Shown here: positions 6,314 through 20,762 of the stretch, piece by piece | Layout: each line of letters opens with the position of its first letter | Position numbering within the stretch: position 1 is the stretch's first letter | Source of the DNA: a virus | Length of the DNA stretch: 21,834 nucleotides | IMG/VR virus record: IMGVR_UViG_3300028592_000084 | Span: 1 to 21,834 of that record | Reading direction: 5' to 3' (one strand) | The notes under the pieces: model-generated | Told to the model about the DNA's origin: nothing | The model's database searches: none | The model's input: the letters and a program-made list of their open reading frames with translations, nothing else | Translations under genes and position numbers: made by a program

Positions 6314-6738
6314 TCATAGACATTGTAGGCCTCGGGGCCGGAGCCAATGTCGAACACCTTCTGTCCGCATGGCTTCATGCCAGCTGCGATGGTGAAGGAT
6401 CGCACATGACGGGCCTCCGGCTTGACCCGTGTCCAGAGGTGCTGTGCCCGGAATTCATCACGCAGGATGCCGATCCCGGCTTTGGCTGCTGCAAGCGCCC
6501 ATTCCCCGCGCCCCGCCTCGGTAATCATGGTGTGGACTTCGTATGTACCCGGCGCGCACCAGATCATGACGAAGCCGCCATAATCGCCCATCAGAGCAAT
6601 ATTGTTCTCATCCTCAATCGCCTTGGAGAGGTCGAGCGGCTTCGAAGCATCCCCCCCGACAAAGGGGCGAATGTCCGGTCGATTGACCAGATCGTTAATC
6701 GATGAACTACGGAAACTTCGCTCAAGGACTGCGGACAT
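6277..6738 (-). CDS. GNAT-like protein in the P22 gp14 (head assembly, DUF2824) position
   Basis: The protein has 153 aa. The sequence reads like a GNAT N-acyltransferase fold: an N-terminal helix followed by RPDIRPFVGGD, a strand pair GGFVMIWCAPGTYEVHTMI (about 55-73), a helix after RGEWALAAAKAGIGILRDE, a strand HLWTRVKPEARHVRSFTIAAGM and a C-terminal YNVYEWRA strand. The usual acetyl-CoA loop (Q/RxxGxG/A) is not evident at its expected site, so enzymatic activity is unproven. It sits between the tail genes and the gp7-position ejection protein, as gp14 does in P22. No SD is visible before ATG 6738; a candidate promoter lies 86-114 nt upstream. Confidence 0.55.
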   Translation of the reverse strand: MSAVLERSFRSSSINDLVNRPDIRPFVGGDASKPLDLSKAIEDENNIALMGDYGGFVMIWCAPGTYEVHTMITEAGRGEWALAAAKAGIGILRDEFRAQHLWTRVKPEARHVRSFTIAAGMKPCGQKVFDIGSGPEAYNVYEWRASQPSTNGE

Positions 6739-6823
6739 GACAGCGGTTCAGCCTGACTGAATCGACCTGCTGTCTGTCGCGGTGGCGGTTCGGTCATTCC
6801 GCCTGCTTGCGCTCGCAATGTAG

Positions 6824-6852
6824 GTTATAGCCTAGTCACAGCTATGCTGCAA
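6824..6852 (-). promoter_or_regulatory. Candidate sigma70-type promoter for the ejection cassette
   Basis: Minus strand: TTGCAG at 6852-6847, a 17-nt spacer, then TATAAC at 6829-6824 (3/6 and 5/6 matches to consensus). It lies across the stop of the fibrous protein gene, in the only gap (6739-6841) within the 9.4-1.8 kb block. No factor-specific motif is seen. Confidence 0.4.
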
Positions 6853-7375
6853 TGATTGGTATCTTATAGTTCGTGCCGTTTACGCTGATCGTTATCGTGT
6901 GCGTGCAGACGACAGTTTCAGCGACAGGAGCCTGATCGATCCTGAATGTATCGCAGCGCAAGTCCTCGCAGTTTACGGTCGGGGACGGGGTTGTTGGCCC
7001 GATGGCTACCCCATTCATGAAACTGCGAAATGCAAGCGCTCCGCCTTCCCTGGTCAGAACCCGGTTATCGCCCGTAGCCGTGATGTCGGCCACATTGCCA
7101 GAGCTGCCCTGAAAGCGGCCGATAACCGATGTGCCGGCGCTTTCCCGGAGCATGTTGTTGGTCACACCGTTAGGGGCGATGGAGATCGAGATGCCGTCCG
7201 CGACAGCACCGCCACCAGTGAGACCGCTTCCCGGGCCTGTCGCGACTTCACCCGCAGCCGCCTCCGCGGTGTTGCGGTTCAGGTTAAAGAAGAAGCGCCA
7301 CCATTCTGGAGCCAGTGCCGGTCCGCCCTTCCAGAGGGGCGTGTTTGGCGGGTTCTGGGTCGTCGGCTGAACCAT
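6842..7375 (-). CDS. Fibrous tail protein in the P22 gp26 (needle) position
   Basis: The protein has 177 aa; ATG 7375 overlaps the upstream stop by one base (TGATG). An N-terminal segment with PLWKGGPALAPEWWRFFFNL is followed by Gly/Ser/Thr-rich, strand-forming sequence (GSGLTGGGAVADGISI, then AGTSVIGRFQGSSGNVADI and ITATGDNRVLTREGGALAF), a common phage fibre-shaft pattern. The C-terminus (about 130-177) looks like a small beta domain with two cysteines (NCEDLRC). In P22 this slot holds the tail needle gp26, but no long coiled coil is visible here, so a needle role is a position-based guess. A minor tail fibre is the alternative. Confidence 0.5.
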   Translation of the reverse strand: MVQPTTQNPPNTPLWKGGPALAPEWWRFFFNLNRNTAEAAAGEVATGPGSGLTGGGAVADGISISIAPNGVTNNMLRESAGTSVIGRFQGSSGNVADITATGDNRVLTREGGALAFRSFMNGVAIGPTTPSPTVNCEDLRCDTFRIDQAPVAETVVCTHTITISVNGTNYKIPIIAA

Positions 7376-8742
7376 CAGCGGATGTCCGCGTAACAGGCGA
7401 CCACACAGCGCTGTACCCGACTAGGCAGCGTCAACTCGATCTGAAGCTGGCGGAACGTGATCCCCATTCGCCAGATGCAGCGCGTGAGATAGTGACCGAT
7501 CTGCCCCATCGTGCGGGACAGTTCGCTCGACCATGTGTTTCCACCATCCTTTGAGTAGCGCAGGATGATCTGCGGGTTCGGATCGTCCAATGTCCCGACG
7601 CCTGCCTCAATCTGCGCTTCAAAGCTGTAGAGCGTGTTCCTCGAACGGTTGGTCTGGAAGCTCGGCAACTGGATGACGACAGGGATTTCCGCACCATTCT
7701 CAGTGTTGGTATAGACGTTGGGTCGATAGAGCTTGCCGGTGTAGATGTCTCCGAAGATGTCACCGCCGTAGACGTTGGCGGAGAACCCGCAGCGATAATT
7801 CGATTTCCCGAGAGACTTGCGCTCATGCCAAGCCCCCGTCGCCATGTCGTAGCCCCAACACCCGAGATTGGTGTTGAGCATGTAGAACTTATGCCCGAGC
7901 TGCGTGTAGGAGAAGGCAAGAAACCATTGCGCACTGGCGATCTGGGTTTCAATCGCGTGGGTCGAAATGCGTACCGGCTCATAGCCGTTCAGGCGATACA
8001 CAACCCGGTCATCGCCCACGAAATGAACGCTGTTGTCGATCTTCACCAAGCTGTTCCGGTCCGTGATGCCGCGCTCAATAAAGGCGTTGCCCTGACGCTG
8101 GAGCGGGAAGTCAGCGGTGCCTGCATTGTACCAGATTTCGACCGTTCTGCCCCCGTAGAACTGCAACTCGCGATGGTCATTGACGCAGGCAACGATATCG
8201 TCGGGGTCGCCCTCCACAGTCGCTACATCGAGAGGGTCGTAGGTCAGGCCATCGTTGAGACCAGAGATGATGAACTGATCGCTCTCGAACACCGTCCACA
8301 CGAAATAGCCGTCGATGTAGACGACGTTCGATACCTGCGGAAGGTTGGGGATGCTGGTGTGCAGGGTTCCGCCTGAATAGACGTACCCCTGATCGCTGTT
8401 GACGCCGCCCTGGATCGCAAGTTCAGCCCCGTTGTCGGCCATCATCACCGGCGCATCGCCGGGGATTGTCCCTAGCGAGGTCGCGACCCCAGCGGACGAG
8501 ATTGAGTAAAGCGTAGACCCCGATACGACATAGAGCGTTTCGGCCATCCGGTGCTCACCGCGGATTTCCTGAGAACCGATATCGCAGAACAGATCCAAGC
8601 CCGGGGTGGCCATGACCGCGAACTGATCGGCCTTGTCGCCTTCCGCCAATTCGGAAAAGCAGTTGACGAGCTTTGCCCCACTCCATGCATTGAACCGGCC
8701 TTCCGAATATTGAAGGGCCGAAAGAACCTTACGAGTGGCCAT
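7375..8742 (-). CDS. P22 gp10-like DNA stabilization / tail plug protein
   Basis: The protein has 455 aa (P22 gp10: 472 aa). The start ATG 8742 has GAAGGG 7 nt upstream and overlaps the preceding gene by 14 nt. The beginning (RFNAWSGAKLVNCFSEL followed by a GLDLF stretch) and internal strands such as ETLYVVSGSTLYSIS, VVYIDGYFVWTV, HRELQFYGGRTVEIWYN and SVHFVGDDRVVYRLNGYEP repeat the beta-propeller-like pattern of the gp10 family. The family forms the hexameric hub that binds below gp4, closes the portal channel and keeps packaged DNA in the head. Location directly after the gp4-like gene is exactly as in P22. Confidence 0.82.
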   Translation of the reverse strand: MATRKVLSALQYSEGRFNAWSGAKLVNCFSELAEGDKADQFAVMATPGLDLFCDIGSQEIRGEHRMAETLYVVSGSTLYSISSAGVATSLGTIPGDAPVMMADNGAELAIQGGVNSDQGYVYSGGTLHTSIPNLPQVSNVVYIDGYFVWTVFESDQFIISGLNDGLTYDPLDVATVEGDPDDIVACVNDHRELQFYGGRTVEIWYNAGTADFPLQRQGNAFIERGITDRNSLVKIDNSVHFVGDDRVVYRLNGYEPVRISTHAIETQIASAQWFLAFSYTQLGHKFYMLNTNLGCWGYDMATGAWHERKSLGKSNYRCGFSANVYGGDIFGDIYTGKLYRPNVYTNTENGAEIPVVIQLPSFQTNRSRNTLYSFEAQIEAGVGTLDDPNPQIILRYSKDGGNTWSSELSRTMGQIGHYLTRCIWRMGITFRQLQIELTLPSRVQRCVVACYADIR

Positions 8743-9436
8743 ACATCAGCCCTTCGTAATCGGGCTGCATGAACAGGGACGCGGGCTCGTTGTCCCATGC
8801 CAACAAGCGCGCTTCAAACTCCTGCGCCTGCGCGATCACGAACTGCATCAGGTTCGGGTCATTCACCGGGTACTGGCTGATCAGCCGCTTAGCACCGCCC
8901 CACATGATCGGCTCTGCCCACTGCTGCGGGATATCGATCGTCTCGTTCGTGGCGGTTACGATGTCCAGAAATCGGAAGTAAGTGTAGTGGATCGTGTACT
9001 GCGTTGCGGCTGAAGCGGAAGGTGCCGGCCAAAGATACAGCGTCCCCGTATCCACCTTCGGATCGAAGTAGAAGTTCACAGGGATCGAGGGTGAAACCAG
9101 CTTGTTAGGCTGGTCGAAATACTCTTGCCGGGAGAACATCGTCATCGGCACATCGATGCCGTTGCGGCGATACCGGCAATCAGTGATACGGAGGGCGCGA
9201 GGAGACACGACGTAAGCCGCCTGCCCCGCAACCAGTGCCAAGGAACCTTCCGTCGCGGTCCAGAGGTGCGGGTAAGCGGACCAGGTCTGAATGAGCCCGT
9301 TGAACGCGCGCAAGCCGTCCTGATACATCTTTGGCGTCAGGGCCTCGCCCTCCTGAGCAACGCCAAGAATGTTGAACATCCCCTCGATGAACTCCAGCAC
9401 ACTGGGCTGGTAAGTGATGATGCCTGAGGTGGTCAC
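8729..9436 (-). CDS. P22 gp4-like tail accessory factor (head-to-tail adaptor)
   Basis: The protein has 235 aa (P22 gp4: 166 aa). A GTG start at 9436 forms a GTGA overlap, with GGGGGA about 6 nt upstream. Typical residues of this family are visible: GEALTPKMYQDGLRAFNGLI near the N-terminus, YPHLW, a central GTLYLWPAPSASAATQY strand-turn segment, and a helical C-terminal part with PQQWAEPIMWGGAKRLIS and FEARLLAW. The family forms a ring under the portal after packaging and connects to the gp10 plug. The gp4-gp10 order is conserved here. Confidence 0.78.
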   Translation of the reverse strand: MTTSGIITYQPSVLEFIEGMFNILGVAQEGEALTPKMYQDGLRAFNGLIQTWSAYPHLWTATEGSLALVAGQAAYVVSPRALRITDCRYRRNGIDVPMTMFSRQEYFDQPNKLVSPSIPVNFYFDPKVDTGTLYLWPAPSASAATQYTIHYTYFRFLDIVTATNETIDIPQQWAEPIMWGGAKRLISQYPVNDPNLMQFVIAQAQEFEARLLAWDNEPASLFMQPDYEGLMYGHS

Positions 9437-9771
9437 AGCGTATCCCCCGGATCGACACCCTCGGTGATCAGGATATTTCCAGTTTCAGTGGTCATGTAGG
9501 CGCCGGTCTGCCAGATGATCGGGCCTGCCACGAACTCGTCGGGAGGCTCGGGGCGCGAATATGGCAGCGCCATGTTGTCCTTGATCCCTCGCACGAAATC
9601 CTGCGGGTTGCGCTTGTCAACAAACCGATAATCGACCAGTTGGTTATCCCACTGCCGCACAAGGTTCTTGAGCGGCACCTTGAAGCCGGATGCAGGATCG
9701 AGTGCTTGCGGCTCAGCCGGGACCGTTGGCGTGCCGTATCGCTTGGGAGGAGTGCCGCCGCGTCGCCTCAT
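9433..9771 (-). CDS. Conserved-looking virion protein of unknown function
   Basis: The protein has 112 aa from ATG 9771, chosen because it overlaps the collagen-like gene stop as ATGA; an upstream in-frame extension would run deep into that gene. It starts with RRRGGTPPKRYGTPTVPAE, then a core with FKVPLKNLVRQWDNQLVDYR and DFVRGIKDNMALP, and ends in strand-like FVAGPIIWQTGAYMTTETGN. I do not recognise the family. Tight coupling to the gp4-like adaptor suggests a small head-tail or tail component. Confidence 0.55.
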   Translation of the reverse strand: MRRRGGTPPKRYGTPTVPAEPQALDPASGFKVPLKNLVRQWDNQLVDYRFVDKRNPQDFVRGIKDNMALPYSRPEPPDEFVAGPIIWQTGAYMTTETGNILITEGVDPGDTL

Positions 9772-10406
9772 CCTAGCACCTCTTCGGTCTGGGCGGCGAT
9801 CGATACCGAGGCAGTCCCGCTCGTGGTTGAAGAGAGCAGGACATAGTGCCCAGCTGGCACGATGTAGGCGAGCGGCGCGGTGTTCGATGTGGTGATCTGC
9901 ACGCCCACCGTGAGCGCGACCGAGGACAAGGCGGCCACCCGACACCGTTCAATAGTCGGTGGATTGCTGGCATCGCTCAACAATCGAACCATCGCGCTCG
10001 AATTGCCCTCCAGAAGCGGGTTCGTCACCTGCGTCACACATGAATAGCTGGCGAGTACTGCTTTCGTCGCGTTAGGCTGAAAAGCTGCACCAATGGTTCG
10101 CGCTGGCGTTGACGGCGTGACTGTACCGAAACCCGCAGGCCCTTGATCGCCCGCGCTTCCCGTAGCGCCCGTTGCTCCTTGGTCGCCTCGCGGGATAGAG
10201 AAGTCGAAAACCGCCGCACTGGACGTCCCAACATTGATGACTGTCGCGCCTGATCCCGGTGCGCCTGTCGTCACTGACCCTACAGCAACCGTGGCAGCAG
10301 CCCCGGTTGCACCAGTGGCTCCGGTATTCCCCGTATCGCCTTTGGCACCTTGCGCACCCGTTTCACCGGTCTGCCCTTTCTGGTTGGGGTTGATGACGCT
10401 GCTCAT
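9768..10406 (-). CDS. Collagen-like phage structural protein
   Basis: The protein has 212 aa; ATGA overlap with the previous gene. Residues 11-37 are nine Gly-X-Y triplets (starting GQTGETGAQGAKGDTG) and 74-94 seven more (GDQGATGATGSAGDQG). Between them is a 36-residue spacer ending in AAVFDFSIPRGDQG, a sequence type commonly found between collagen repeats in phage fibres. The C-terminal domain (about 95-212) is strand-rich with TIERCRVAALSSVALTVG and PAGHYVLLSS. Phage collagen-like proteins are usually homotrimeric fibres on heads or tails. The X and Y positions are poor in proline and rich in Thr/Ala, as in bacterial collagens. Confidence 0.75.
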   Translation of the reverse strand: MSSVINPNQKGQTGETGAQGAKGDTGNTGATGATGAAATVAVGSVTTGAPGSGATVINVGTSSAAVFDFSIPRGDQGATGATGSAGDQGPAGFGTVTPSTPARTIGAAFQPNATKAVLASYSCVTQVTNPLLEGNSSAMVRLLSDASNPPTIERCRVAALSSVALTVGVQITTSNTAPLAYIVPAGHYVLLSSTTSGTASVSIAAQTEEVLG

Positions 10407-10741
10407 GCATCTTCCACCATGAGTGTCAGCGCACCGGAACAGCGTCCTGCACCCCCTAGGTTCAGGACCAGATCCTCCCCGTCATCGGTCATAAGCCAGC
10501 GGCGCTGATTGAATTCGAGCGTGATGACCGCGCCATCCTTCAGCTGAAGCGGGCCACCAAGTACGGTCGAACCGCTCTTGAACACGACATCGCCATAAAC
10601 TTCAGGATCGGGCCGAGTGAGGGTCAACACGATGCGGAAGATACGCATCCACTTGCCCGGCTCGCCTGCGCGAATGACGTGATCACCGGGACCGCTGACA
10701 TCCACTGCAACGGGGATCGAATCCGTGATCGGATTGCTCAT
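10403..10741 (-). CDS. Small beta-rich virion protein of unknown function
   Basis: The protein has 112 aa from ATG 10741, which overlaps the upstream stop as ATGA; a start at 10813 in the same frame would overlap the preceding gene by 76 nt and is less likely. Strands are evident: SIPVAVDVSGPGDHVI, KWMRIFRIVLTLTRP, VYGDVVFKSGSTVLGGPL, AVITLEFNQRRWLMT and CSGALTLMVED. It looks like a single beta-sandwich domain with no catalytic motif. It is probably a decoration or fibre-accessory protein, as it is coupled to the collagen-like gene. Confidence 0.5.
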   Translation of the reverse strand: MSNPITDSIPVAVDVSGPGDHVIRAGEPGKWMRIFRIVLTLTRPDPEVYGDVVFKSGSTVLGGPLQLKDGAVITLEFNQRRWLMTDDGEDLVLNLGGAGRCSGALTLMVEDA

Positions 10742-10989
10742 GTCGTGGCCGTATTGAGCGCAGTCATTTTGCTGATCGAGATCAGCGATGCGCTCGGGTC
10801 CGTTCCATTCCACGGCGGATCATCAGGCGAACCGATGGCCGCGATAAGCTCGGATAGATCAACTGGCGTTCCGCCAGCCCCGAGCAGATTCATGCTCGGA
10901 ATAAACGCCGTCTTTCCGCTGATCGGCGATGTAACCTGTTCGGCGAGGGTGTAATCGACATTCGGCCGATAGACGTCATTCACTGCCAT
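10738..10989 (-). CDS. Small hypothetical virion protein, 83 aa
   Basis: Starts at ATG 10989 with GGAAGGA upstream, and overlaps the preceding gene by 14 nt. The sequence includes RPNVDYTLAEQVTSPISG, a central GAGGTPVDLSELIAAIGSP and a Ser/Thr-rich end. No membrane segment or known motif is seen. Family not recognised; a structural role is inferred only from its place in the block between capsid and tail adaptor. Confidence 0.5.
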   Translation of the reverse strand: MAVNDVYRPNVDYTLAEQVTSPISGKTAFIPSMNLLGAGGTPVDLSELIAAIGSPDDPPWNGTDPSASLISISKMTALNTATT

Positions 10990-11146
10990 CGGGGATTCCT
11001 TCCCATCCGTTCCGCTCGATGGCTGAAAGGAGCTTCCGGTCTCCTCGCGCCTCGGTGAGCGGGATTTGCTTCAGGACGCCTTGCGGGCCGCGGATCACAT
11101 ATTGGCTATACTCGACGCCGCCCTCGATGCGCCCCTGCTTAGGCAT
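10976..11146 (-). CDS. Small hypothetical protein, 56 aa
   Basis: ATG 11146 lies inside the end of the upstream gene (ATGCCTAA, 8-nt overlap), so translation is probably coupled; no clear SD is visible. The protein begins MPKQGRIEGGVEYSQYVIRG and continues with KQIPLTEARGDRKLLSAIERNGWEG, one strand pair and one helix. No family is recognised. The tight overlaps on both sides (8 and 14 nt) support it being real. Confidence 0.5.
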   Translation of the reverse strand: MPKQGRIEGGVEYSQYVIRGPQGVLKQIPLTEARGDRKLLSAIERNGWEGIPDGSE

Positions 11147-11297
11147 CGGACCAACCGTTCAGACGGGCCAGTTCGCGGAGGCAGGCAACTTCCTCCTCCA
11201 GCTTCGCTACGCGCGCAGGAATGGCCTTAGGCAGCGAGCCCCCCTGCTTGCCGTTCCCGTCAGCGTCTGTGCTGCCCTTGCGGTGCGTGCCAGCCAT
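11139..11297 (-). CDS. Small hypothetical protein with a coiled-coil helix, 52 aa
   Basis: ATG 11297 is preceded by GAGGAGG with about 5 nt spacing, a strong SD. The first 23 residues are Gly/Lys/Asp-rich and disordered-looking; the rest (AIPARVAKLEEEVACLRELA) is a heptad-like amphipathic helix suited to oligomerisation. It starts 11 nt after the lectin-like gene stop and overlaps the next gene by 8 nt. Function unknown; possibly a small oligomeric virion component. Confidence 0.5.
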   Translation of the reverse strand: MAGTHRKGSTDADGNGKQGGSLPKAIPARVAKLEEEVACLRELARLNGWSDA

Positions 11298-11307
11298 CAC
11301 AGCCTCC

Positions 11308-11994
11308 TCAGCGCTTCTTGGCCGCGAGCAGATAATCGACCTGGAGGTTCTTTGCCCCCGCCGATCCGTTCGCGAAAAAGATTGTGGGGGTTAGTTCGGT
11401 GTCGGGAAGGAAAGAGGATGAGCCGTCCATCGATCCAACCGAAACGTCGTTGACGTAAACCGTGACCGTGGACTTGCCATCATAGTACCAACCGAGGGTG
11501 ATGAAGTCGGTGGTCAGCGTGCCTGCGGCGAGCGAGGTCGAGCCGGTAGTAGCGTTCTTGCGGCACAGCGCAGTGATGGCGGTGACATCGTCAGCCTTGG
11601 TGAAGAAGATGCCATCCGTCGCATCGATCGGTGTGGTATCGGTAATGCACAGGCCGAGCACAAGCGTGCACTGGGTTGCATCAGACGCTTTAACTCGCGC
11701 CTTGAACAGCGCAGGCTTACCCGCTTCAAGCAGGAAGCTCGCACCAACCTTCTGCAGGGTGATGCTGTCAGTGGCGCCGGTGTTATTGGTGACTAGAAGA
11801 ACGCCGCCGTCCGCGTCGGTCAGGGCGATTGTTCCCGTCGCGGCGTTGGTGACCGTCCAATTGCCAGCGGTGTAATAGTCGAAGTCGTCGAAATAGCTGT
11901 GCCAGCTCGATGGGTCAGGAAGACCATAGTTGCCGGTGTTGGTGGTCTTGGCGACGTTCGTAACGCCACCGGGGAAACGAGTAGGTGCAGACAT
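11308..11994 (-). CDS. Lectin/LamG-like beta-sandwich virion protein
   Basis: The protein has 228 aa. It begins with TRFPGGVTNVAKTTNTGNYG and WHSYFDDFDYYTAGNWTVTN, then alternating strands (GTIALTDADGGVLLVTNN, ALFKARVKASDATQCTLVLG, GIFFTKADDVTAITAL, GWYYDGKSTVTVYVND, TPTIFFANGSAGAKNLQVDY). This is the usual layout of concanavalin-like jelly-roll domains in phage structural proteins. It is the first gene after the capsid terminator, so it may be expressed separately as a head decoration or fibre protein. GGAG lies 9 nt before ATG 11994, next to a nested inverted repeat. Carbohydrate binding is not shown. Confidence 0.65.
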   Translation of the reverse strand: MSAPTRFPGGVTNVAKTTNTGNYGLPDPSSWHSYFDDFDYYTAGNWTVTNAATGTIALTDADGGVLLVTNNTGATDSITLQKVGASFLLEAGKPALFKARVKASDATQCTLVLGLCITDTTPIDATDGIFFTKADDVTAITALCRKNATTGSTSLAAGTLTTDFITLGWYYDGKSTVTVYVNDVSVGSMDGSSSFLPDTELTPTIFFANGSAGAKNLQVDYLLAAKKR

Positions 11995-12004
11995 CCAGAC
12001 AGCT

Positions 12005-12042
12005 CCGTGACGTTCGAAAACGCGGGGCTGCCCGCGTCACGG
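12005..12042 (-). promoter_or_regulatory. Nested inverted repeat upstream of the lectin-like gene
   Basis: Outer arms CCGTGA (12042-12037) and TCACGG (12010-12005) enclose a 6-bp GC hairpin CGCGGG-CAGC-CCCGCG followed by TTTTCGAACG. The 3' outer arm ends in the first two bases of the GGAG SD of the gene at 11994. It could act as translation control, an RNase III site, or a second weak terminator (four Ts follow the inner hairpin). Confidence 0.45.
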
Positions 12043-12094
12043 TGTCGGCTTGGCTGTCTATGCGCACTGCGCCGGTTAGTGCAGAACCGTCACT

Positions 12095-12103
12095 AGCATA
12101 CCA
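12095..12103 (-). promoter_or_regulatory. Possible extended -10 promoter element
   Basis: Minus strand TGG-TATGCT fits the extended -10 pattern TGn-TATnnT and lies directly after the terminator at 12142-12111, ahead of the lectin-like gene. No good -35 is present. This is a weak call based on one short motif and position. Confidence 0.2.
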
Positions 12104-12110
12104 GTCAGAC

Positions 12111-12142
12111 AAAGAAAAGGGGCGACCCCAAAGAGCCGCCCC
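12111..12142 (-). terminator. Rho-independent terminator after the major capsid gene
   Basis: Minus strand: a stem GGGGCG/CGCCCC, extended inward by two C-G pairs and two G-U pairs (10 pairs, 4-nt loop), then TTTTCTTTGT. It starts 19 nt after the capsid stop. It is probably partial, lowering rather than ending expression of the tail block, because no strong promoter follows. Confidence 0.8.
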
Positions 12143-12160
12143 ACCCCGCTGCGCCGGGAG

Positions 12161-13066
12161 TTATGCGCCAGCCGAGCCGTAGGCCCCGCGGAAATCGGAC
12201 CAACCAGCACTGAAGCGCTGATAGGCCTTGTATTTGAGGTTCGACGTGTCGAAGTCACCGTCCTGGGCGAACTCGGGACGCTCACGCCAGAAGAAGGTCA
12301 TCCCGTTCTCCACGTCGGTACGGATAAAATAGGCATCCGCATCGGTGAAATAGGGGTTGATCTTCGCGCCATCGGGGAAATACCCCTCCGAACGCAGAGC
12401 GTTGATCGCGTTGTTACCCGAATCCGGGGTCAGCAGCGACTTGAGGATGCGAGCCGCTTCAGCCCAGTTCGCCGTAGCGACATGCAGCGACTTCGGCATG
12501 AGCGAGATGCGAAGCCCTCGGGCATCGACCGCATTCATGATCTGCGTCACCGCATCCTCCAGAGCCGCTTCCGTCAGATCGGCAGCTGTCAGGAGGTTGG
12601 ACTGGCTTCCGTTCGGCGTCGGGTGCGACGCCGAGAACAACGGCTGACCATCACCACCCGCGAACGAGCTGTTGAAGCCGCGATTGTAGACGTTGGCACC
12701 CACATTCTCGACCGTCTGTCGCATCGATCGCCCGAGGGCTTTCGTCTTCATCGTGCTGTTCTTGAGATAAAGGTTATCCTTCATCTCTTCATGCGTGACG
12801 ATGAAGCCCAGCGCATACGCAACATGCTGGTAGCGAGACTTGGTCTGCTGCTGAGTGGTGTCGTAGATGATCGACGAACCCTGAGGCTTCACGGGAGCGA
12901 GGCCGAAGCCCGGAAGCTCCACATCCTCCTCATAGTTCATCTCCGAGTCCTTGATCTCAAAGAGATCCTCGTACTTCTTGGGCCAGTCCTTGTAGGAATC
13001 GCCCCAGACGGCATTGAGACCAGGCCACAGAAGTGCTGGGATATTGCCGGTTGTAATCACGCCCAT
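12161..13066 (-). CDS. Major capsid protein (HK97-fold type)
   Basis: The protein has 301 aa. ATG 13066 follows AAGGAG with good spacing. Features of a major head subunit: an N-terminal GVITTGNIPALLWPGLNAVW, a segment with ELPGFGLAPVKPQGSSI and YDTTQQQTKSRYQHVAYALG followed by FIVTHEEMKDNLY, a central AGGDGQPLFSASHPTPNGSQ, and a C-terminal HVATANWAEAARILKSLL with FFWRERPEFAQDGDFDT. The pattern resembles Mu gpT-like HK97-fold subunits; it is shorter than the P22 coat protein (430 aa). It follows scaffold and decoration genes and is closed by a terminator, as expected for the most abundant virion protein. Confidence 0.82.
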   Translation of the reverse strand: MGVITTGNIPALLWPGLNAVWGDSYKDWPKKYEDLFEIKDSEMNYEEDVELPGFGLAPVKPQGSSIIYDTTQQQTKSRYQHVAYALGFIVTHEEMKDNLYLKNSTMKTKALGRSMRQTVENVGANVYNRGFNSSFAGGDGQPLFSASHPTPNGSQSNLLTAADLTEAALEDAVTQIMNAVDARGLRISLMPKSLHVATANWAEAARILKSLLTPDSGNNAINALRSEGYFPDGAKINPYFTDADAYFIRTDVENGMTFFWRERPEFAQDGDFDTSNLKYKAYQRFSAGWSDFRGAYGSAGA

Positions 13067-13091
13067 TTCAAATCTCCTTCACGAGCGCGGC

Positions 13092-13706
13092 TCAGACGCC
13101 GGCCACCTGGTTGGCGAAGCGGCTGCGGTTGAGCTTGACGAGCCACTGGCCCGCGGCTGCGCCCGTTGCGGCGGCGGTCCCAAGATCGTTGCCCGGCGAT
13201 TGGAACTGGCCGATGATCTTGAGGTCGAGGGTGTTGGTTGCGGCCTCCGTAGTATTGTCCAGCACCATCCCGGAGAGGCCGGTGATCGTGCTGCCATTCG
13301 AGCCCACGCTGAAATCAACGTTGAGGCCGATAGCGTTCGGAGTGAGCGGAGTGCCCGAATTGATGTCCTGACAGAGCAGGAGCATGTTCGGGTCGATCGC
13401 CACGGTAATCACCGTTTGCGTGCTGGCAGGCGCATAGATCGGAGAATCTCGCGTCACCAGATCGACGCCGATGCAAACGCCGTCCTGAATGCCGCCAGTC
13501 ACCGCTTGCGCAGCAATCGGGAAGCTCTGGACCGCGCCACCGACATTGACCAGCACCGAGTCACCGGTAGCTGTTACGATATCGCCGACGAAGATCGCCT
13601 GCGTATCACCAGATGCGTGGATGTACTGACGAGTTGCACCGTTATACGGCGAACCCGCGAAGTTCGAGACGGGGATGAACCCCTTTGGAGCGTTTGTGTT
13701 CGCCAT
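13092..13706 (-). CDS. Head decoration / structural protein
   Basis: The protein has 204 aa. The start MANTNAPKGFIPVSNFAGSP and following YNGATRQYIHASGDTQAIFV and FVGDIVTATGD match a common type of phage structural protein encoded next to the major capsid gene. The central part has the typical DGVCIGVDLVTRDSP and VAIDPNMLLLCQD strands. It is rich in Gly, Thr, Val and Asn with almost no helix-forming stretches, so it is probably a beta-sandwich that binds the capsid surface. Its SD (GAAGGG) lies in the arm of a strong hairpin. It is transcribed just before the capsid gene. Confidence 0.65.
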   Translation of the reverse strand: MANTNAPKGFIPVSNFAGSPYNGATRQYIHASGDTQAIFVGDIVTATGDSVLVNVGGAVQSFPIAAQAVTGGIQDGVCIGVDLVTRDSPIYAPASTQTVITVAIDPNMLLLCQDINSGTPLTPNAIGLNVDFSVGSNGSTITGLSGMVLDNTTEAATNTLDLKIIGQFQSPGNDLGTAAATGAAAGQWLVKLNRSRFANQVAGV

Positions 13707-13714
13707 AACGGCAC

Positions 13715-13736
13715 CCTTCGCTAGGGCTAGCGAAGG
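13715..13736 (-). promoter_or_regulatory. 10-bp perfect hairpin containing the SD of the decoration gene
   Basis: Plus-strand 13715-13724 and 13727-13736 are perfect inverted arms (CCTTCGCTAG, CTAGCGAAGG) separated by two bases. In the mRNA the 3' arm carries GAAGG, the SD for ATG 13706. The fold would mask ribosome binding, or it could be a processing site or protein-binding site. No T-tract follows, so it is not a terminator. Confidence 0.6.
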
Positions 13737-13758
13737 CGTGCGAAGCAGCGGTCGTCAG

Positions 13759-14232
13759 CTAACCCGGTTGGAACTTTCCCTCGATTTTTCCCCGGCCATA
13801 GGCGTCCGAAAGGTTGCCTTCGGGGTCCGTTCCTCGCAGAATCGCTTGCTCAAAGGCCGTGTGATTGGCCTCTTTGTCGTCGATGCCCGCCTGATATTCT
13901 GCCAGGGGGGTTTCCATGAGGTAGGAATATTGGGGTGCGCCAAAGCCGTCGGTGCCTGTGAGGCGGCGGACGCGAGAGTCGGGGCCATCTGACTTTAAGC
14001 CCTGCTCTGAGACATGCTCATACGCCAATTCATGGGCCTCTGCAATACGTCCTGGCTTATCCACGAACCAACGGCGGAAGTAGCCGAGCCGCTCTGTTGC
14101 GGCCAACTTCAGGTTGAGTCCTGTGATAGCCTTTCGGCGACGACGCGAAGACGGTGCCGCATCGGAAACTTGCTCTGCGACCGGCTGTGAAACCATGGGG
14201 GGGCGGCCCCGCCTCTTTGGAATATCGCTCAT
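13759..14232 (-). CDS. Hypothetical head-region protein, 157 aa
   Basis: ATG 14232 has a perfect AGGAGG 5 nt upstream. The N-terminus is basic with KRRGRPP, an AT-hook-like motif, and SRRRRKAI. The middle (LAATERLGYFRRWFVDKPGR, then IAEAHELAYEHVSE) has the RRW...D..GRI pattern seen in uncharacterised phage proteins between scaffold and capsid. The last third is acidic and helical. I infer a head-assembly or DNA-associated role from the position and basic N-terminus; the function is unknown. Confidence 0.6.
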   Translation of the reverse strand: MSDIPKRRGRPPMVSQPVAEQVSDAAPSSRRRRKAITGLNLKLAATERLGYFRRWFVDKPGRIAEAHELAYEHVSEQGLKSDGPDSRVRRLTGTDGFGAPQYSYLMETPLAEYQAGIDDKEANHTAFEQAILRGTDPEGNLSDAYGRGKIEGKFQPG

Positions 14233-14246
14233 TCGAACCTCCTAGA

Positions 14247-15119
14247 TTACCACGGGCCGGAGTAGGACTTGGCGAAGAGGTCATAGGCCTCCGCCTTAGT
14301 CCTCACCTTGAAAATGCCGAGCCGCATGTAGCGCTCGGCGTGCTCCTTCGCATCGGCGGGTAGGTTGGCCCCGATCTTTGCTCCCCGTGACGATGATCTA
14401 CCAGTCACTGCCGCAACATCGCTGGCGGGCTTTCCCCGCTGCGCTTTTAGACCGAGGGCAGGGAATTTCTCCCGCGTTTCTTCGCCTATTCTCGCGAAGA
14501 ACTCGCTGGGGGCTATATCATTGTGCAGACCTTGACGCATCCACCGTTCCGCCAAGCGATCAGCGTATAGCCGAGCTTCCACCTCGACTTCCGATGCAGA
14601 TGCTAGGCCGCCCTTATCGTACCAGATGTGCTTGTCACGGAATTCATCAAAGGCGTCTTCCGCCTCCTCCTTTGATGGAGCGCGTTGTCCGCTGACAGCC
14701 TCACCAGCCTCTTTGGTCAGCGTGTCAAGCTTGTCCTTTGCGAAATCGAAGGCCGATAGATCTCCAGCCTCCACCGCGTGCCTAAGATCACGCTCCAACT
14801 CCTTGCGGGCATTATCGAAGGCCCTTTTCTCCGCGTCCTTGAGCTGTCCCACCATTTTGGTAAGGTGCGTGACTTTGTTGCGGAGAGCATAGACCTCTTT
14901 CGCCTTGAGGCCGAGGTTGGTCTCTCGGAATTCGATAAAATCCTGCGCATCCTTCCACGCGCCAGGGGGCCCGTCATATTCATCTTTCGGCCGCCAGCCC
15001 ATAACACGGGCTTCTTGCTCGAAATCACGTTCCGGGGCCGCTTCGGCCGCCGTGGTATCCTGCTCCGCAACCTCGCCTCCCCCGAGGCTGTCGGGCATTT
15101 CTGCCAGTTGCGTTGCCAT
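14247..15119 (-). CDS. Capsid scaffolding protein
   Basis: The protein has 290 aa (P22 gp8: 303 aa). ATG 15119 has AGGAG 8 nt upstream. An acidic N-terminus leads to ARVMGWRPKDEYDGPPGAW followed by KDAQDFIEFRE, a motif often seen in phage scaffold proteins. A long charged coiled coil covers about 74-138 and is followed by an acidic helical region. The end is basic (about 262-290), which in the scaffold family contacts the coat protein. Scaffolds direct procapsid assembly and leave before DNA packaging completes. Position between portal and coat genes agrees. Confidence 0.8.
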   Translation of the reverse strand: MATQLAEMPDSLGGGEVAEQDTTAAEAAPERDFEQEARVMGWRPKDEYDGPPGAWKDAQDFIEFRETNLGLKAKEVYALRNKVTHLTKMVGQLKDAEKRAFDNARKELERDLRHAVEAGDLSAFDFAKDKLDTLTKEAGEAVSGQRAPSKEEAEDAFDEFRDKHIWYDKGGLASASEVEVEARLYADRLAERWMRQGLHNDIAPSEFFARIGEETREKFPALGLKAQRGKPASDVAAVTGRSSSRGAKIGANLPADAKEHAERYMRLGIFKVRTKAEAYDLFAKSYSGPW

Positions 15120-15124
15120 TTCTT

Positions 15125-15547
15125 CTACTCCTGTGTCAGTAATCCAATGACATCGGCATCGTTGAGAATGGTGTACTCAACGTCGTCATCGCCCTTGTGC
15201 TGGTCGCCTGTGTATTTCCCGACCTTCACGCGATCACCCGGCTCGGGAAACCGTGCATCGATGCCGAAGTTCTTCGCGTCGTGCTTGGCCTCGCACCATG
15301 CCAGCGCGCCAACGGCGATCACCGTGGCATTGGTCATGGCGAACTTCTTCTTGTCCTTCTCGCTGTCGGGAAGGATGATTGAGCCGATCCTGTCTTCGAC
15401 CTTGTCGTGCAGAACCAGCACGCGATGATCGAGCGGGATGATGCCGGAAGGATTTGCCCTTCTCGTTCGATTGGCATCTACCGCAGCCAAGTGCTCGACC
15501 AGTTCCGCGTGCTTACCAGCTACCATCGATATGAGGCCGCTGCTCAC
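15125..15547 (-). CDS. Phage-encoded GroES-like co-chaperonin
   Basis: The protein has 140 aa from GTG 15547 (GGAGG 7 nt upstream; overlaps the preceding stop). Residues 36-137 align by eye with GroES: IPLDHRVLVLHDKVED (PLHDRVIV in E. coli), a mobile-loop region whose hydrophobic tripeptide IIL at 57-59 corresponds to the IVL that binds GroEL, then ATVIAVG, a GDRVKVGKY strand and YTILNDADVIGLL at the end. Unlike GroES (97 aa), it has a 35-residue helical N-terminal extension and a longer middle segment (81-100). T4 gp31 is a known phage co-chaperonin needed to fold its capsid protein. Placement between portal and scaffold suggests a similar task here. Confidence 0.82.
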   Translation of the reverse strand: MSSGLISMVAGKHAELVEHLAAVDANRTRRANPSGIIPLDHRVLVLHDKVEDRIGSIILPDSEKDKKKFAMTNATVIAVGALAWCEAKHDAKNFGIDARFPEPGDRVKVGKYTGDQHKGDDDVEYTILNDADVIGLLTQE

Positions 15548-15675
15548 CGCTCACCCTCCCCCCTCTTTGGGTTCACGCTGGGGGTGGTCGCGATAGCGTA
15601 GCGCTGGCGCATACCCTCTCGCATCTTGCTCTGCACCGAGGCCGGAACCGGGGTACGCTTGGGATCGTCTGCCAT
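15544..15675 (-). CDS. Small hypothetical basic protein, 43 aa
   Basis: ATG 15675 has GGAGGA 6 nt upstream, and the stop overlaps the GTG start of the co-chaperonin gene by 2 nt. The sequence begins MADDPKRTPVPASVQSKMRE and is rich in Arg/Lys and Pro; no membrane segment. The strong SD and the tight fit between two genes support it being translated. Function unknown; it may also keep ribosomes coupled into the co-chaperonin gene. Confidence 0.55.
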   Translation of the reverse strand: MADDPKRTPVPASVQSKMREGMRQRYAIATTPSVNPKRGEGER

Positions 15676-15677
15676 GT

Positions 15678-15938
15678 TCATTCCTCCACTTTCATCCACT
15701 CAAGGGTTTCGCTCGTCAGCTTGGTCGTCGCGAGGCAGAACATGCCGATTGCGCGCATGCCATCGATGTTTCCCCATCCATAAATTTGCATCTCGCCATC
15801 GATTTCGGCGCACGCGACCATGCTCTCAACATGACCGATCTCACCTGAATCGATCTCGTCGGCCATCCGACGAAACTGGCCCGCAATGTCCTTCGCGCAC
15901 ACGGGCCTAAGCGGGACGACCTCAGGCTTGCTGGCCAT
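15678..15938 (-). CDS. Hypothetical phage protein, 86 aa
   Basis: ATG 15938 was chosen because AGGAGA lies just upstream; an in-frame start at 15974 would add 12 residues without an SD. It overlaps the end of the 84-aa gene by 17 nt. The layout is SKPEVVPLRP, a helix DIAGQFRRMADEIDSGEIG, then strand-rich SMVACAEIDGEMQIYGWG and a C-terminal helix. Proteins starting with VVPLRP and a DEI..G motif occur as small uncharacterised phage genes. Function unknown. Confidence 0.6.
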   Translation of the reverse strand: MASKPEVVPLRPVCAKDIAGQFRRMADEIDSGEIGHVESMVACAEIDGEMQIYGWGNIDGMRAIGMFCLATTKLTSETLEWMKVEE

Positions 15939-16176
15939 CGTCTTCTCCTGCGTGGTACTGGGCGACAACATCATCCCAATCCATCGCTGCTAGCTGGCCC
16001 AACAAGACCGCCTGCGCCTGCGCCTCCGGGAGGTGGGAACCCGCCGTCCCCTGCCCCCATGCCTGCGTCAGGTTCGATTGGCGGTCCCTCAGAAACTGGA
16101 AGAACTCCACCGTCGTCGGGTGCTCCCTCCATTGCTGGAACAGGTCCTTGTCCATCAGGCGGATCGGGCTGGCCAT
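15922..16176 (-). CDS. 84-aa phage protein overprinted on the portal gene 3' end
   Basis: ATG 16176 has GAGGA 5 nt upstream, inside the portal gene, and the frame differs from the portal's; 206 nt are shared. The protein has a normal, well-balanced composition: DLFQQWREHPTTVEFFQFLR, then DRQSNLTQAWGQG and a C-terminal helical QAVLLGQLAAMDWDDVVAQY. The W..(H)P.T......L..R...L..AW pattern is typical of small genes that follow portal genes in other phages (family knowledge, not searched here). In contrast, the portal frame here is Gly/Pro low-complexity, so this frame is the likely older one. Function unknown. Confidence 0.7.
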   Translation of the reverse strand: MASPIRLMDKDLFQQWREHPTTVEFFQFLRDRQSNLTQAWGQGTAGSHLPEAQAQAVLLGQLAAMDWDDVVAQYHAGEDDGQQA

Positions 16177-18100
16177 CGGCTTCCTCTACTGCTTTGGCGG
16201 CCAGTGTGGCCGCGTCTTCCATCAAGCCAAGGTTCGCGGCCCGTTCGGCTGCTCCGGTGTATTTCTCGGCGGCGGTGGCGGATGCGGTCTTGGCTCGGCT
16301 GTCCGCGTCCTTCGCCGCAGTCTCAGCTTTAGCCATGCCCTCCAGCATCTTAGGATCAGGCTGTGGCGGAGGCACTTCGAAATATGCCTTCACATCGCGC
16401 GCGCCCATCGCCACGAGCATATCCTCTCGGATTTTCTTCTGGTTGATGAGCGGGTCGCCATTGAACGTCTGCATCATGGCCTCGGCGCGGGCCATCTTGT
16501 GCATGTCGCTGACCTGCCCCGGGTCGCTGACCGGGATCACATCGAGATCTTCGTCGGCGTAATCCTCACGAGCGATTTCTACAGCCTGCTCTGCATCGTT
16601 GAGCTGGAAATACTCCTCCTCATCGAGGTAGTCCCGGTTGAGGCGACGAAGGATGCGCAGCTCCTGCCCGAACGAACGGTGGATGCGCTTGAAGATGCCC
16701 TTCCGCACCGTCGAAGCCTGTTCGATCAATGCGAGCGTAGTGGTGGCGGGCTGATTAGGGGAGGCGCGGCCCGCCACCACATCCTGCGCTGACGTGATGT
16801 CACGCGCAGCTTGGTAGAGCATCTCAAGAAGGGCGAACGAGGTCGAAGACGGACCTTCTGCTGGCATCGGGAAGAACGCATCGCGCATGTTCATCCCATT
16901 CGGGACATCAGCACGCTTCCACTCTCCGAGGCGGAACGAGAAGTTGCCGCCGCGGACATTGATACCCGAGGCAACAAACCCACCGCCAGCATTGGCGAGC
17001 GCCGCCGCGTCAATCATCTGGTTCTGCAGCCGATCGATCAGGCCAGTGACGTTTTCCAAGAGGTCACCGAACCCAATGTCATAGAACGAGCCATCAGGCG
17101 ACGGAATGAACCCGTACTTGGTGAAGTACTGGCGCCGGCTGATCTTGACGACCTCAAGCTGCATGTTCGGGATCGAACCGCCCTGAAGCAGTTCCACCAG
17201 CTTGGTCGGCTTGGCGAGGATCGGCGAGTTGATGATAACGTCTTCGGGACCAAAGCAAGGCACGACCCGCGCAACTTCGCCGTCAGTCGTGCAGGTGACG
17301 ACGTAATGCTCGGGGTATCCGTCGCCGTCGAGATCCTCACACCGATGCTGCTCGTAGAACTCGACCAGGGCCTGATCGTCTTCGCTGCTATCATCCCCCT
17401 CAAGGCTGACCGGCCTCCACAGGCCTGCAGCGATGAATTCTTGCGCCTCATAGGGGTAATAGTGCAGACGGTGCGTGTACCGCGGCGCCGTCTCGATCGA
17501 CTTCGCATCGTTGCTGATGATGAAGTCGAGGCCGTTGACGATCTCGCTACGGTTCGCGTTCTCGATGCTGTCGTAATAGGTCTTGCGGAACATGCAGCCG
17601 ACAATGGGCAGCATGAGCAAAAGTTTGTCGGTATCCTCTTCCCACCCCGGCATGCGGTAGAGAAGCTGCCACGTCATATGCTGGCCGATGCGATCAGCCC
17701 GCGAACGCTTTTCGCCATCCGGATCAGGACCAAGAACGCGGCCTTTGACCAGGTTCGAGCCATCCACAATGACCGGATAGGCTTCGGCGTTGAACTGGAT
17801 GGCCGCGATGGTCAGGATCGGCGAACGCGAGTTGGATGCGCCAGGCCAAGGGAAGACCTTTGGCTCCTTCTTCTGCATCGCGATGTCGATGTTGCGCTGG
17901 TAGCGGTCCTGCCACTCGCCACGCGACGATTCATCAAGCTCGACGTCGCGAATGACGGCCTGACCGATGCGAGCCAGATCGGTGTCCGGGATGTAATCGG
18001 CGAGGTTTCCGCCGACCGACAGGATATCGAGCAGGCCAAGCGCGGGCGCGGCCTCTTCCTGCGTCTCTTCTTCGATCATTTCGATGGGCTGAGTGGCCAT
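15971..18100 (-). CDS. Portal protein (P22 gp1-like)
   Basis: The protein has 709 aa (P22 portal: 725 aa). The TerL stop overlaps ATG 18100 by one base, and GGGGGA precedes it. An N-terminal EWQDRYQRNIDIAMQKKEPK and FPWPGASNSRSPILTIAAIQ segment is typical of P22-like portals. Helical stem and crown regions with DVVAGRASPNQPATTTLALI and IHRSFGQELRILRRLNRDYL follow. Near 575-640 an Ala/Lys/Glu helix (KMLEGMAKAETAAKDADSRA) may be the start of a barrel. The last 65 residues are Gly/Pro/Asp low-complexity and share DNA with the 84-aa gene. Portals form the dodecameric DNA channel at one capsid vertex. Confidence 0.85.
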   Translation of the reverse strand: MATQPIEMIEEETQEEAAPALGLLDILSVGGNLADYIPDTDLARIGQAVIRDVELDESSRGEWQDRYQRNIDIAMQKKEPKVFPWPGASNSRSPILTIAAIQFNAEAYPVIVDGSNLVKGRVLGPDPDGEKRSRADRIGQHMTWQLLYRMPGWEEDTDKLLLMLPIVGCMFRKTYYDSIENANRSEIVNGLDFIISNDAKSIETAPRYTHRLHYYPYEAQEFIAAGLWRPVSLEGDDSSEDDQALVEFYEQHRCEDLDGDGYPEHYVVTCTTDGEVARVVPCFGPEDVIINSPILAKPTKLVELLQGGSIPNMQLEVVKISRRQYFTKYGFIPSPDGSFYDIGFGDLLENVTGLIDRLQNQMIDAAALANAGGGFVASGINVRGGNFSFRLGEWKRADVPNGMNMRDAFFPMPAEGPSSTSFALLEMLYQAARDITSAQDVVAGRASPNQPATTTLALIEQASTVRKGIFKRIHRSFGQELRILRRLNRDYLDEEEYFQLNDAEQAVEIAREDYADEDLDVIPVSDPGQVSDMHKMARAEAMMQTFNGDPLINQKKIREDMLVAMGARDVKAYFEVPPPQPDPKMLEGMAKAETAAKDADSRAKTASATAAEKYTGAAERAANLGLMEDAATLAAKAVEEADGQPDPPDGQGPVPAMEGAPDDGGVLPVSEGPPIEPDAGMGAGDGGFPPPGGAGAGGLVGPASSDGLG

Positions 18101-19587
18101 CAATATCCCCCCTCAGGCATACGGTCGCCTTCCCAGCGGTCGTGCTCATCTTCGTAGAAACTGGGAAGCACGGGCACAGCGAAGGTCAGCGCAAGGCCAT
18201 CGCCATCGTCAGGCGATGCGAGACCGCGCGCCTTCATGTGCTCCTTGCGCTCAAGCTGGATTTCGTCGCGGACGTTGAAGCTGTACTCCACGCCGGTCAG
18301 ATCGTCCGCAAGCTGCTGATCATCGGTCAACGCGCCGCCATCGAGCCACTCACGCATGATCGCCCACATCTCCGCACGCCGATTGGCGCACTTCACGTTG
18401 TTGAGCAGACGAACCGCGCCAAGCGGTTTCGACCCGAACTGCACCCCAACGACGGGCAGGCCCATCTGCTTCAGGCGATCGACAACACCTGCGCCAATGC
18501 CGCCCTCATCGACGCAGACCATCGCCGCATTGTGGAGCCGCTGCTCTTGGGCGACGCGAGCGGCCAGCTGCATCGTGTCCACACCATGCAGACGAATGGG
18601 CTTGATCGTTCGGGCATCCCTGCCCTGCCGGAAGTAGATCGCGCTATGGTCGTCGCCGAAACGGGCAACATCGACACCTATGACGATCGGCTCGCTTTCC
18701 TCGTGCTGTATCTCCCTGTGCCGGGCTGCGTCCACCAGACCTGAGCCGATGAACTGCATCGATGAGGTGGACGGGAACATGCCCCGCACGCGCACCTTCA
18801 CGATGTCACTGTCCTCGCCATAGGTCTGGACCATCTCGTTGAGATATGCCTTGTTGGTTCCTTCAACGTCGCGACTGTCGATCTGGCGCGTCTTCCACAG
18901 GTTACGGAAGCGACCGAAGCACTCTCGGAAACGGCCTGTGTTCTGCGTAGGGTTTCCGAAGGCTATCCAGATGATCTCGGTTCCCTCGTCCGTCAGCGCG
19001 CCCTCGGTGACCTCCCACACCTTGTCGGCGATCTTGGACGCCTCATCAAAGATGATGACGATGCGCTTGCCCTTGTTGTGCAGGCCGGCGAAAGCTTCGG
19101 TGTTGTGCTCCGACCATGTGACCGCGTCGCAACGCCACGATTCCTCGTGACCGCCGACGATGCTGAAGATCCCCGTCTTGGTGACCTTCCACCAGTCCTT
19201 GGTGATCGCGAGTCCGTTCCACTTGCTGACCTCGGGCCACGTCTTGGTGCGCAGCTGAAGCTCGGTGTTCGCCGTGATGACGATACGCGTGTCTTCGCAG
19301 GTGTCCTTGGCCCACCCGATAATCATGCTGATCAGCGCCGACTTGCCGATACCGTGCCCGGATGCAACCGCGAGGCGAAGCGGCTCATGGCGCGTGGCCG
19401 GGTTGCTCAGATGGTCGCGGATGTCCTCCATGACATCGGACTGCCAGTCGCGTGGCCCTTGCATGTCGGACAGCGCGCCGGTTTCCTGCCATGGATAGGA
19501 ATAGACCGCATAGCCAAGCGGGTCGTGCGTGAAGCCCGCTATGTCGTTCGCCAGTTCGATGATGGGATCAGGCGCGCGACTAGCCAT
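18100..19587 (-). CDS. terL: Terminase large subunit (TerL)
   Basis: The protein has 495 aa from ATG 19587, which has GAGG 6 nt upstream; a start four codons earlier would place that SD inside the gene. Walker A SGHGIGKS is at 76-83 and Walker B VIIFDEAS at 177-184 (ATPase motor). The RNase H-like nuclease domain shows GVDVARFGDD at 304-313, an acidic CVDEGGIGAG near 359, and SPDDGDGLALT at 456-466. TerL pumps DNA into the procapsid and cuts the concatemer. It overlaps terS by 8 nt and the portal by 1 nt, so the three packaging genes are co-translated. Confidence 0.92.
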   Translation of the reverse strand: MASRAPDPIIELANDIAGFTHDPLGYAVYSYPWQETGALSDMQGPRDWQSDVMEDIRDHLSNPATRHEPLRLAVASGHGIGKSALISMIIGWAKDTCEDTRIVITANTELQLRTKTWPEVSKWNGLAITKDWWKVTKTGIFSIVGGHEESWRCDAVTWSEHNTEAFAGLHNKGKRIVIIFDEASKIADKVWEVTEGALTDEGTEIIWIAFGNPTQNTGRFRECFGRFRNLWKTRQIDSRDVEGTNKAYLNEMVQTYGEDSDIVKVRVRGMFPSTSSMQFIGSGLVDAARHREIQHEESEPIVIGVDVARFGDDHSAIYFRQGRDARTIKPIRLHGVDTMQLAARVAQEQRLHNAAMVCVDEGGIGAGVVDRLKQMGLPVVGVQFGSKPLGAVRLLNNVKCANRRAEMWAIMREWLDGGALTDDQQLADDLTGVEYSFNVRDEIQLERKEHMKARGLASPDDGDGLALTFAVPVLPSFYEDEHDRWEGDRMPEGGY

Positions 19588-20288: not shown

Positions 20289-20762
20289 CTATTCGACGTG
20301 CTTATGAGTTATCCGAGTGCGAATATTGCTGATGCATGCGGATGAGGTGGAGAACTCGGCTGCCAATTCAAACAAGCGCTTTGGTGAGCTACGGATGTAC
20401 CGTATCTCGTCTGGAGTGAAGCCCCGACGACCCCCGGTGCCGCGCTCGCATGCATCTGCAATGTTTTCTTTCGGTGATCCCCACCGCAGGTGATCGGCGC
20501 GGACGCAGGCCGGATTGTCGCACGAATGAAGCGCCCATACCCGCACGTCATCAGGGTGCTGTCCCGCGATCAGCAATGAGATTTGACCGGCGCGATATTG
20601 AACGCCGTTTATCGATACGCCCCGAGGATACCCGCCATATCCAAACGACCCCGTCCAAAGCCAGCAATCACCGTGAGGACCTTGGCCATCGGATCGATCG
20701 ACCCGGCGCCAAAATCTATCTTCGATAATCGGGGTGATAGTTGGTATGGGCTTGTCAGCCAT
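20289..20762 (-). CDS. HNH endonuclease (HNH_3 type)
   Basis: The protein has 157 aa; ATG 20762 has AGGAG 7 nt upstream. An N-terminal RFWRRVDRSDGQGPHGDCWL and WTGSFGYGGYPRG segment is followed by the HNH core with ALHSCDNPACVRADHLRWGS and ENIADACERG, giving H79, N83, H91 and a CxxxxC pair (C81, C86). The C-terminal part (FTPDEIRYIRSS, then FELAAEFSTSSACISNI) looks like a helix-turn-helix DNA-binding module. It may be a homing nuclease. The alternative is a packaging-associated HNH, since it sits upstream of terminase. Confidence 0.85.
   Translation of the reverse strand: MADKPIPTITPIIEDRFWRRVDRSDGQGPHGDCWLWTGSFGYGGYPRGVSINGVQYRAGQISLLIAGQHPDDVRVWALHSCDNPACVRADHLRWGSPKENIADACERGTGGRRGFTPDEIRYIRSSPKRLFELAAEFSTSSACISNIRTRITHKHVE

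Follow-up and report, generated by a model that had tools for sequence, protein, structure and literature searches.

A GroES-family co-chaperonin linked to the capsid gene cassette in a clade of phages

Introduction

Only for T4 is it known in any depth why some phages carry a GroES of their own, while most use the one of their host. Virioplankton chaperonins were reportedly surveyed in a 2017 ISME J study. In T4, the folding of gp23 requires both GroEL and the phage gp31 (PMC3012670), a lid without roof and with a 22-residue loop (PMC6318259). Closer to the locus described here are two groups of marine phages: GroES is one of the 13 core genes of the HTVC023P-type pelagiphages (PMC9599517), and it is labelled in the CRP-901-type roseophages (PMC10149686). 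Both papers appear to report only that GroES is present in these marine phages. In the literature searched, which covered few subscription papers, neither the roof motif presented below nor a general association between groES and the capsid cassette was described.

Here we analyse a Cpn10 (GroES-like) gene from a 21.8 kb virus contig (in the following, the window), for which an original prediction had proposed a phage GroES with a helical N-terminal extension, placed in a head module. The linkage of groES to the capsid cassette, in which the portal gene may move away while groES stays, is a stronger finding than the extension.

Identification of the Cpn10 gene

The Cpn10 gene of the window has a GTG start codon (Table 1). 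Its product matched the Pfam Cpn10 profile PF00166 (E = 4.2e-10, 39.9 bits, curated cut-off 21.1) and PHROG_3188, “co-chaperonin GroES” (2.2e-9), and the nearest solved structure was the GroES 3nx6 (2.4e-6). GroES, Hsp10 and chloroplast co-chaperonins were strong matches to a profile built from 65 relatives. The AlphaFold2 model, built on a 65-sequence alignment, had a mean pLDDT of 89 and a predicted Cpn10 barrel, with helices predicted at residues 3–31, at 61–70, just past the mobile-loop tripeptide, and at 85–93, in the roof segment. Human mitochondrial Hsp10 was the top PDB match of this model (Foldseek, E = 1.6e-7), and the closest predicted viral proteins in BFVD were mostly labelled co-chaperonin GroES.

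The GroES-type core named in the original prediction was fully recovered, with PLDHRVLV, IIL (within GSIILP) and DADVIGLL all present. The same prediction had given two outcomes that would speak against it, a placement outside the Cpn10 family and loss of the mobile loop in homologues. Structure and profile comparisons both put the protein inside the family, and the loop was kept, positions 1 and 3 of its tripeptide being hydrophobic in 124 of 138 relatives. The closest Cpn10 homologues, on contigs L004 and L005, were 75 and 69% identical to the window protein, and the dN/dS of the core was ~0.14 in both comparisons, indicating purifying selection. With a Pfam match above the cut-off, a hydrophobic mobile-loop tripeptide and a predicted Cpn10 beta-barrel, the window protein is confirmed as a true member of the Cpn10/GroES family with an intact mobile loop, and not a chance match. 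It presumably forms a heptamer and binds GroEL. Against the NCBIfam set for housekeeping GroES (PRK00364) it reached at best 39.9 bits versus 96, falling below every NCBIfam GroES cut-off.

Table 1 Features of the Cpn10 gene and of the capsid cassette in the window.
Feature	Coordinates	Strand	Evidence
Portal protein, SU10_portal family (PHROG_1216)	15971..18103	-	Pfam, PHROG
Small ORF directly upstream of Cpn10, overlapping its start (GTGA); L004 homologue in the same place	15544..15675	-	Position, homology
Shine-Dalgarno-like stretch preceding the GTG start	15554..15565	-	Sequence
Cpn10 (GroES-like co-chaperonin), 140 aa	15125..15547	-	Pfam PF00166, PHROG_3188, PDB, AlphaFold2/Foldseek
N-terminal extension, residues 1-32, predicted helix; in-frame insertion missing from L004 and L005	15452..15547	-	Homologue comparison, AlphaFold2
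Mobile-loop tripeptide Ile-Ile-Leu (residues 57-59), expected GroEL contact	15371..15379	-	Sequence, comparison with relatives
Enlarged roof segment (residues 81-103), predicted helix 85-93, family-specific A-[FWY] pair (A83-W84)	15239..15307	-	Alignment, AlphaFold2
Putative scaffold, begins 5 nt past the Cpn10 stop	14247..15119	-	Position, size, coiled character; no Pfam match
Cassette gene X, function unknown	13759..14232	-	Position, homologue in L005
Cassette gene Y, function unknown (head decoration protein is a guess)	13092..13706	-	Position, homologue in L005
Major capsid protein (MCP), Phage_capsid_4 / Mu gpT-like, ~33 kDa; proposed client	12161..13066	-	Pfam, size, linkage

Loop and roof segments

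The enlarged middle segment of the original prediction corresponds to a mobile loop and a roof that are both longer than in host GroES. Relative to proteobacterial host GroES, the mobile-loop stretch had three additional residues in the window (family median +4) and the roof segment six (21 versus 15 residues; family median +1). The roof opened with an A/C/S-[FWY] pair in 133 of the 138 phage sequences, and the second position of this pair was aromatic in one of the eight host sequences. The loop was atypical in some five diverged members, L092, L113 and L118 among them.

N-terminal extension

The Cpn10 proteins of L004 and L005 open with M-N-T-S-G-I, that is straight at the core, without the extension. 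The start context TRA-GCG-GTG was common to the window and L004, pointing to an insertion in frame, ~31 codons long, immediately behind the start codon of the window gene. Given the strong Shine-Dalgarno-like stretch, translation from this GTG is likely. The codon-position composition of the insertion was ambiguous: 20% of coding stretches scored as low, and 11% of wrong-frame stretches as high. A search for its source in the window and in all loci returned nothing besides the window’s own copy. Among 138 phage and prophage sequences, with start codons picked by rule, a median of seven residues preceded the Cpn10 core.

Thus, of the 35-residue helical extension originally predicted, the open reading frame, the Shine-Dalgarno-like stretch and a predicted helix stood, while its absence from the two nearest homologues counts against it. 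By these comparisons, the window-type extension appears specific to this contig, and of all parts of the original prediction it has the weakest support. The suggestion that it recruits the client is weak, the nearest homologues lacking it while the capsid linkage is near-universal.

Another extension of ~21 residues (M..ILK...AEY..A.W.G.N.SG) recurred in one Cpn10 subgroup, including L041, L065, L047, L087, L066 and others, in most of which a good Shine-Dalgarno preceded the ATG.

The head module of the window

The original prediction had spoken of a P22-like module. This assignment did not hold: the portal matched the SU10_portal family (4.4e-15) and P22_portal only at 1e-3, with 18.2 bits under the cut-off of 26.1; the adaptor matched the SU10 family, and the MCP belonged to the Phage_capsid_4/Mu gpT-like family. 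Cpn10 was absent from SU10, from P22 and from 80 P22-coat loci, the latter being near-identical prophages of little diversity.

Several further genes were noticed around the head modules. The last ~200 nt of the portal gene (3′ end) were also covered, in a second frame, by an 84-aa ORF (window 15922–16176, minus strand). Similar proteins were located at the corresponding position in L004 and L005, suggesting a genuine overlapping gene. An HNH endonuclease ORF (window 20289–20762, minus strand) lay upstream of the small terminase gene (PHROG_59, 1.7e-17). L005 (IMGVR_UViG_3300020045_001559, positions 3545–7002) had an MCP gene in normal order and a second, inverted one, 86% identical to that of the window. 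Two oppositely oriented GIY-YIG endonuclease ORFs were found between the two, in a region that may be a chimera or a real rearrangement.

Linkage of groES to capsid genes

The gene neighborhood was surveyed from two anchors, portal and MCP, so that loci with and without groES could be picked up. As the seeds of both alignments came from phages that carry groES, the counts describe the clade near the seed phages rather than whole Pfam families. From the portal anchor, Cpn10 was found downstream on the same strand in 71 of 80 IMG/VR loci, the other nine being cut off or having <2.5 kb downstream. L026 and L038 were not counted as losses, having <2.5 kb downstream of the portal whereas the gap to groES reaches 4.1 kb. 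From the MCP anchor, Cpn10 lay ~2 kb before the MCP in 63 of 80 loci; all of the remaining 17 had ≤2.3 kb upstream, and every contig with enough upstream DNA carried it (63/63). The order portal, Cpn10, MCP on one strand was kept in all 122 loci holding the three genes. The distance between Cpn10 and MCP was tight (median 2034 nt, CV 0.12), and that between portal and Cpn10 loose (CV 1.37). For example, ~9 kb lay between portal and groES in Roseobacter phage CRP-902 and in MW202675, and eleven small ORFs in Pelagibacter phage HTVC027P, groES still being directly before the scaffold in all three. The family to which the window protein belongs is widespread. An annotated GroES was present in Caulobacter phage RW (RW_GP090c), Alcaligenes phage vB_Af_QDWS535, Planktothrix phage Pag-Yong1 and phage DSL-LC04. 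These results support the link between groES and head assembly made in the original prediction.

In two more distant relatives, vir526 and MW202601, Cpn10 was away from the head genes, which counts against the capsid protein as client. The virus vir526 (BK063670) is assigned to Methanomicrobiales (Archaea), and had its Cpn10 (L100, positions 1027–1383) upstream of the terminase, as well as a related MCP. A contig binned as Candidatus Saccharibacteria (L189, positions 7956–13803; binning taken as given) carried the entire cassette of portal, Cpn10, scaffold and MCP. In Phenylobacterium sp. J367, the prophage head region was present in two near-copies (L181 and L186), ~45 kb apart at one contig end. 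One of the copies had a broken Cpn10 frame, possibly due to assembly overlap.

GroEL partner

Searches of the window and of 53 related phage records (51 records, several of them >40 kb, plus vir526 and MW202601) gave no Cpn60 above the family cut-off. One weak Cpn60 match in G040 was judged to be due to chance (12.6 bits versus a cut-off of 34.3, inside a 725-aa frame). Seven prophage-bearing bacterial genomes or MAGs, namely Phenylobacterium, Zavarzinia, Hyphomonas and MAGs of Paracoccus, Acidobacteriia, Nitrospiraceae and Saccharibacteria (MAG contig binning taken as given), each had one GroEL, located beside the host groES, and an orphan prophage Cpn10. Because no phage GroEL was found and these genomes have a single GroEL, the partner of the phage Cpn10 is most likely the host GroEL, rather than the phage-specific GroEL originally suggested.

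Proposed function

We consider it rather probable that the phage Cpn10 is a dedicated GroEL lid for folding capsid proteins of the Phage_capsid_4/Mu gpT-like family, its roof and loop being reshaped for this client, in analogy to T4 gp31. During infection, a heptamer of the phage Cpn10 would cap the host GroEL, in place of or beside the host GroES, with the mobile loop docking onto GroEL as that of GroES does. The gene is the first of a conserved cassette, groES, scaffold, X, Y and MCP, and its main task would be the GroEL-assisted folding of the ~33 kDa capsid protein, which presumably folds poorly with the host’s own lid. The longer loop and the roof, with its short helix and conserved A-[Phe/Tyr/Trp] pair, may remodel the top of the folding cage to suit the capsid client. 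The capsid protein is proposed as client based on the linkage to the capsid cassette and on the T4 precedent (PMC3012670), and the role of the roof is likewise suggested. SU10 points in the same direction, having related portal and adaptor families but an MCP of another family, and no Cpn10. The size argument made for gp31 is not transferable, as an MCP of ~33 kDa, unlike the 56 kDa gp23, should fit the ordinary GroEL–GroES cage.

The phage Cpn10 could instead be a general supplement, which raises the lid dosage or replaces the host GroES late in infection to allow the folding of many phage proteins, its place in the cassette reflecting only late, high expression and no special capsid client. 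T4 gp31 can also act on general GroEL clients (PMC3012670, PMC6318259), the loop that contacts GroEL is similar to the one in host GroES, and the location of the gene outside the head cassette in vir526 and MW202601 fits as well. We nevertheless regard such a role as unlikely, considering that the gene accompanies one MCP clade almost without exception and at a nearly fixed distance, the family-specific roof additions, and the lack of Cpn10 in SU10 and P22, although both make heads late in infection. Still less likely is that the lid serves the scaffold or the portal instead, to which the original prediction tied groES by position. The scaffold gene starts a few nucleotides past groES in the window and at a median of 39 nt elsewhere; being nearer to groES than the MCP gene, its position does not separate the two as clients. 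Obligate dependence on GroEL is less likely for a protein that is so poorly conserved (13–25% identity to the window outside L004 and L005) and has a coiled character. The portal, at 77 kDa, exceeds the size that can be fully encapsulated, and in several phages its gene lies apart from groES.

The location in the head module and the family-specific loop and roof additions would also agree with a Cpn10 fold which no longer works as a lid and has been taken over for a structural or assembly role in the head. For the family this is highly improbable, the hydrophobic GroEL-contact tripeptide of most members being hard to explain without GroEL binding; it may hold for some of the diverged members with an atypical loop.

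Returning to the dedicated capsid lid, a wider reading can be offered tentatively: this capsid clade may fold badly with host GroES and have co-evolved with its own lid, whose remodelled roof would contact the capsid protein. This would be the second case of a lid of the gp31 kind, independent of the first and more widespread. The clade comprises phages of Alphaproteobacteria, Alcaligenes, Cyanobacteria and others, as well as MAG contigs assigned to Acidobacteriia, Nitrospiraceae and Saccharibacteria. With a capsid clade paired to a phage Cpn10, it becomes testable whether lids are adapted to individual clients, and through which of their parts. Cultured members are available on Caulobacter vibrioides CB15, Alcaligenes faecalis and Planktothrix.

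Comparison with known systems

The HTVC023P-type pelagiphages and the CRP-901-type roseophages have the same Cpn10 family and the same cassette (groES, scaffold, X, Y, MCP) as the window. They differ in that their portal is farther from groES, and no window-type N-terminal extension was seen in them. The head module of SU10 (Kuravirus) resembles that of the window in its portal and adaptor families and in the order portal, small ORF, scaffold and MCP, but its MCP is from another family (PF17236) and it has no Cpn10.

With bacterial GroES, the phage protein shares the barrel, the G-x-I-x-L/I mobile loop and the terminal strands. In contrast, the phage gene is an orphan without groEL, and its product has an extra roof helix and the A-[FWY] pair; in the tree, phage and host Cpn10 fell on separate sides with an SH-aLRT support of 100, calculated from only 108 columns and eight host sequences. 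The co-chaperonins T4 gp31 and RB49 CocO are a further known system close to the phage Cpn10. The Foldseek match to T4 gp31 (4.8e-3, 9% identity) was weaker than that to GroES. The roof, gone in gp31, is kept and enlarged in the window protein, and the proposed client has 33 kDa, compared with the 56 kDa of gp23. Judging from the retained roof, the phage Cpn10 family appears to be a separate lineage with a design of its own, rather than a close relative of gp31.
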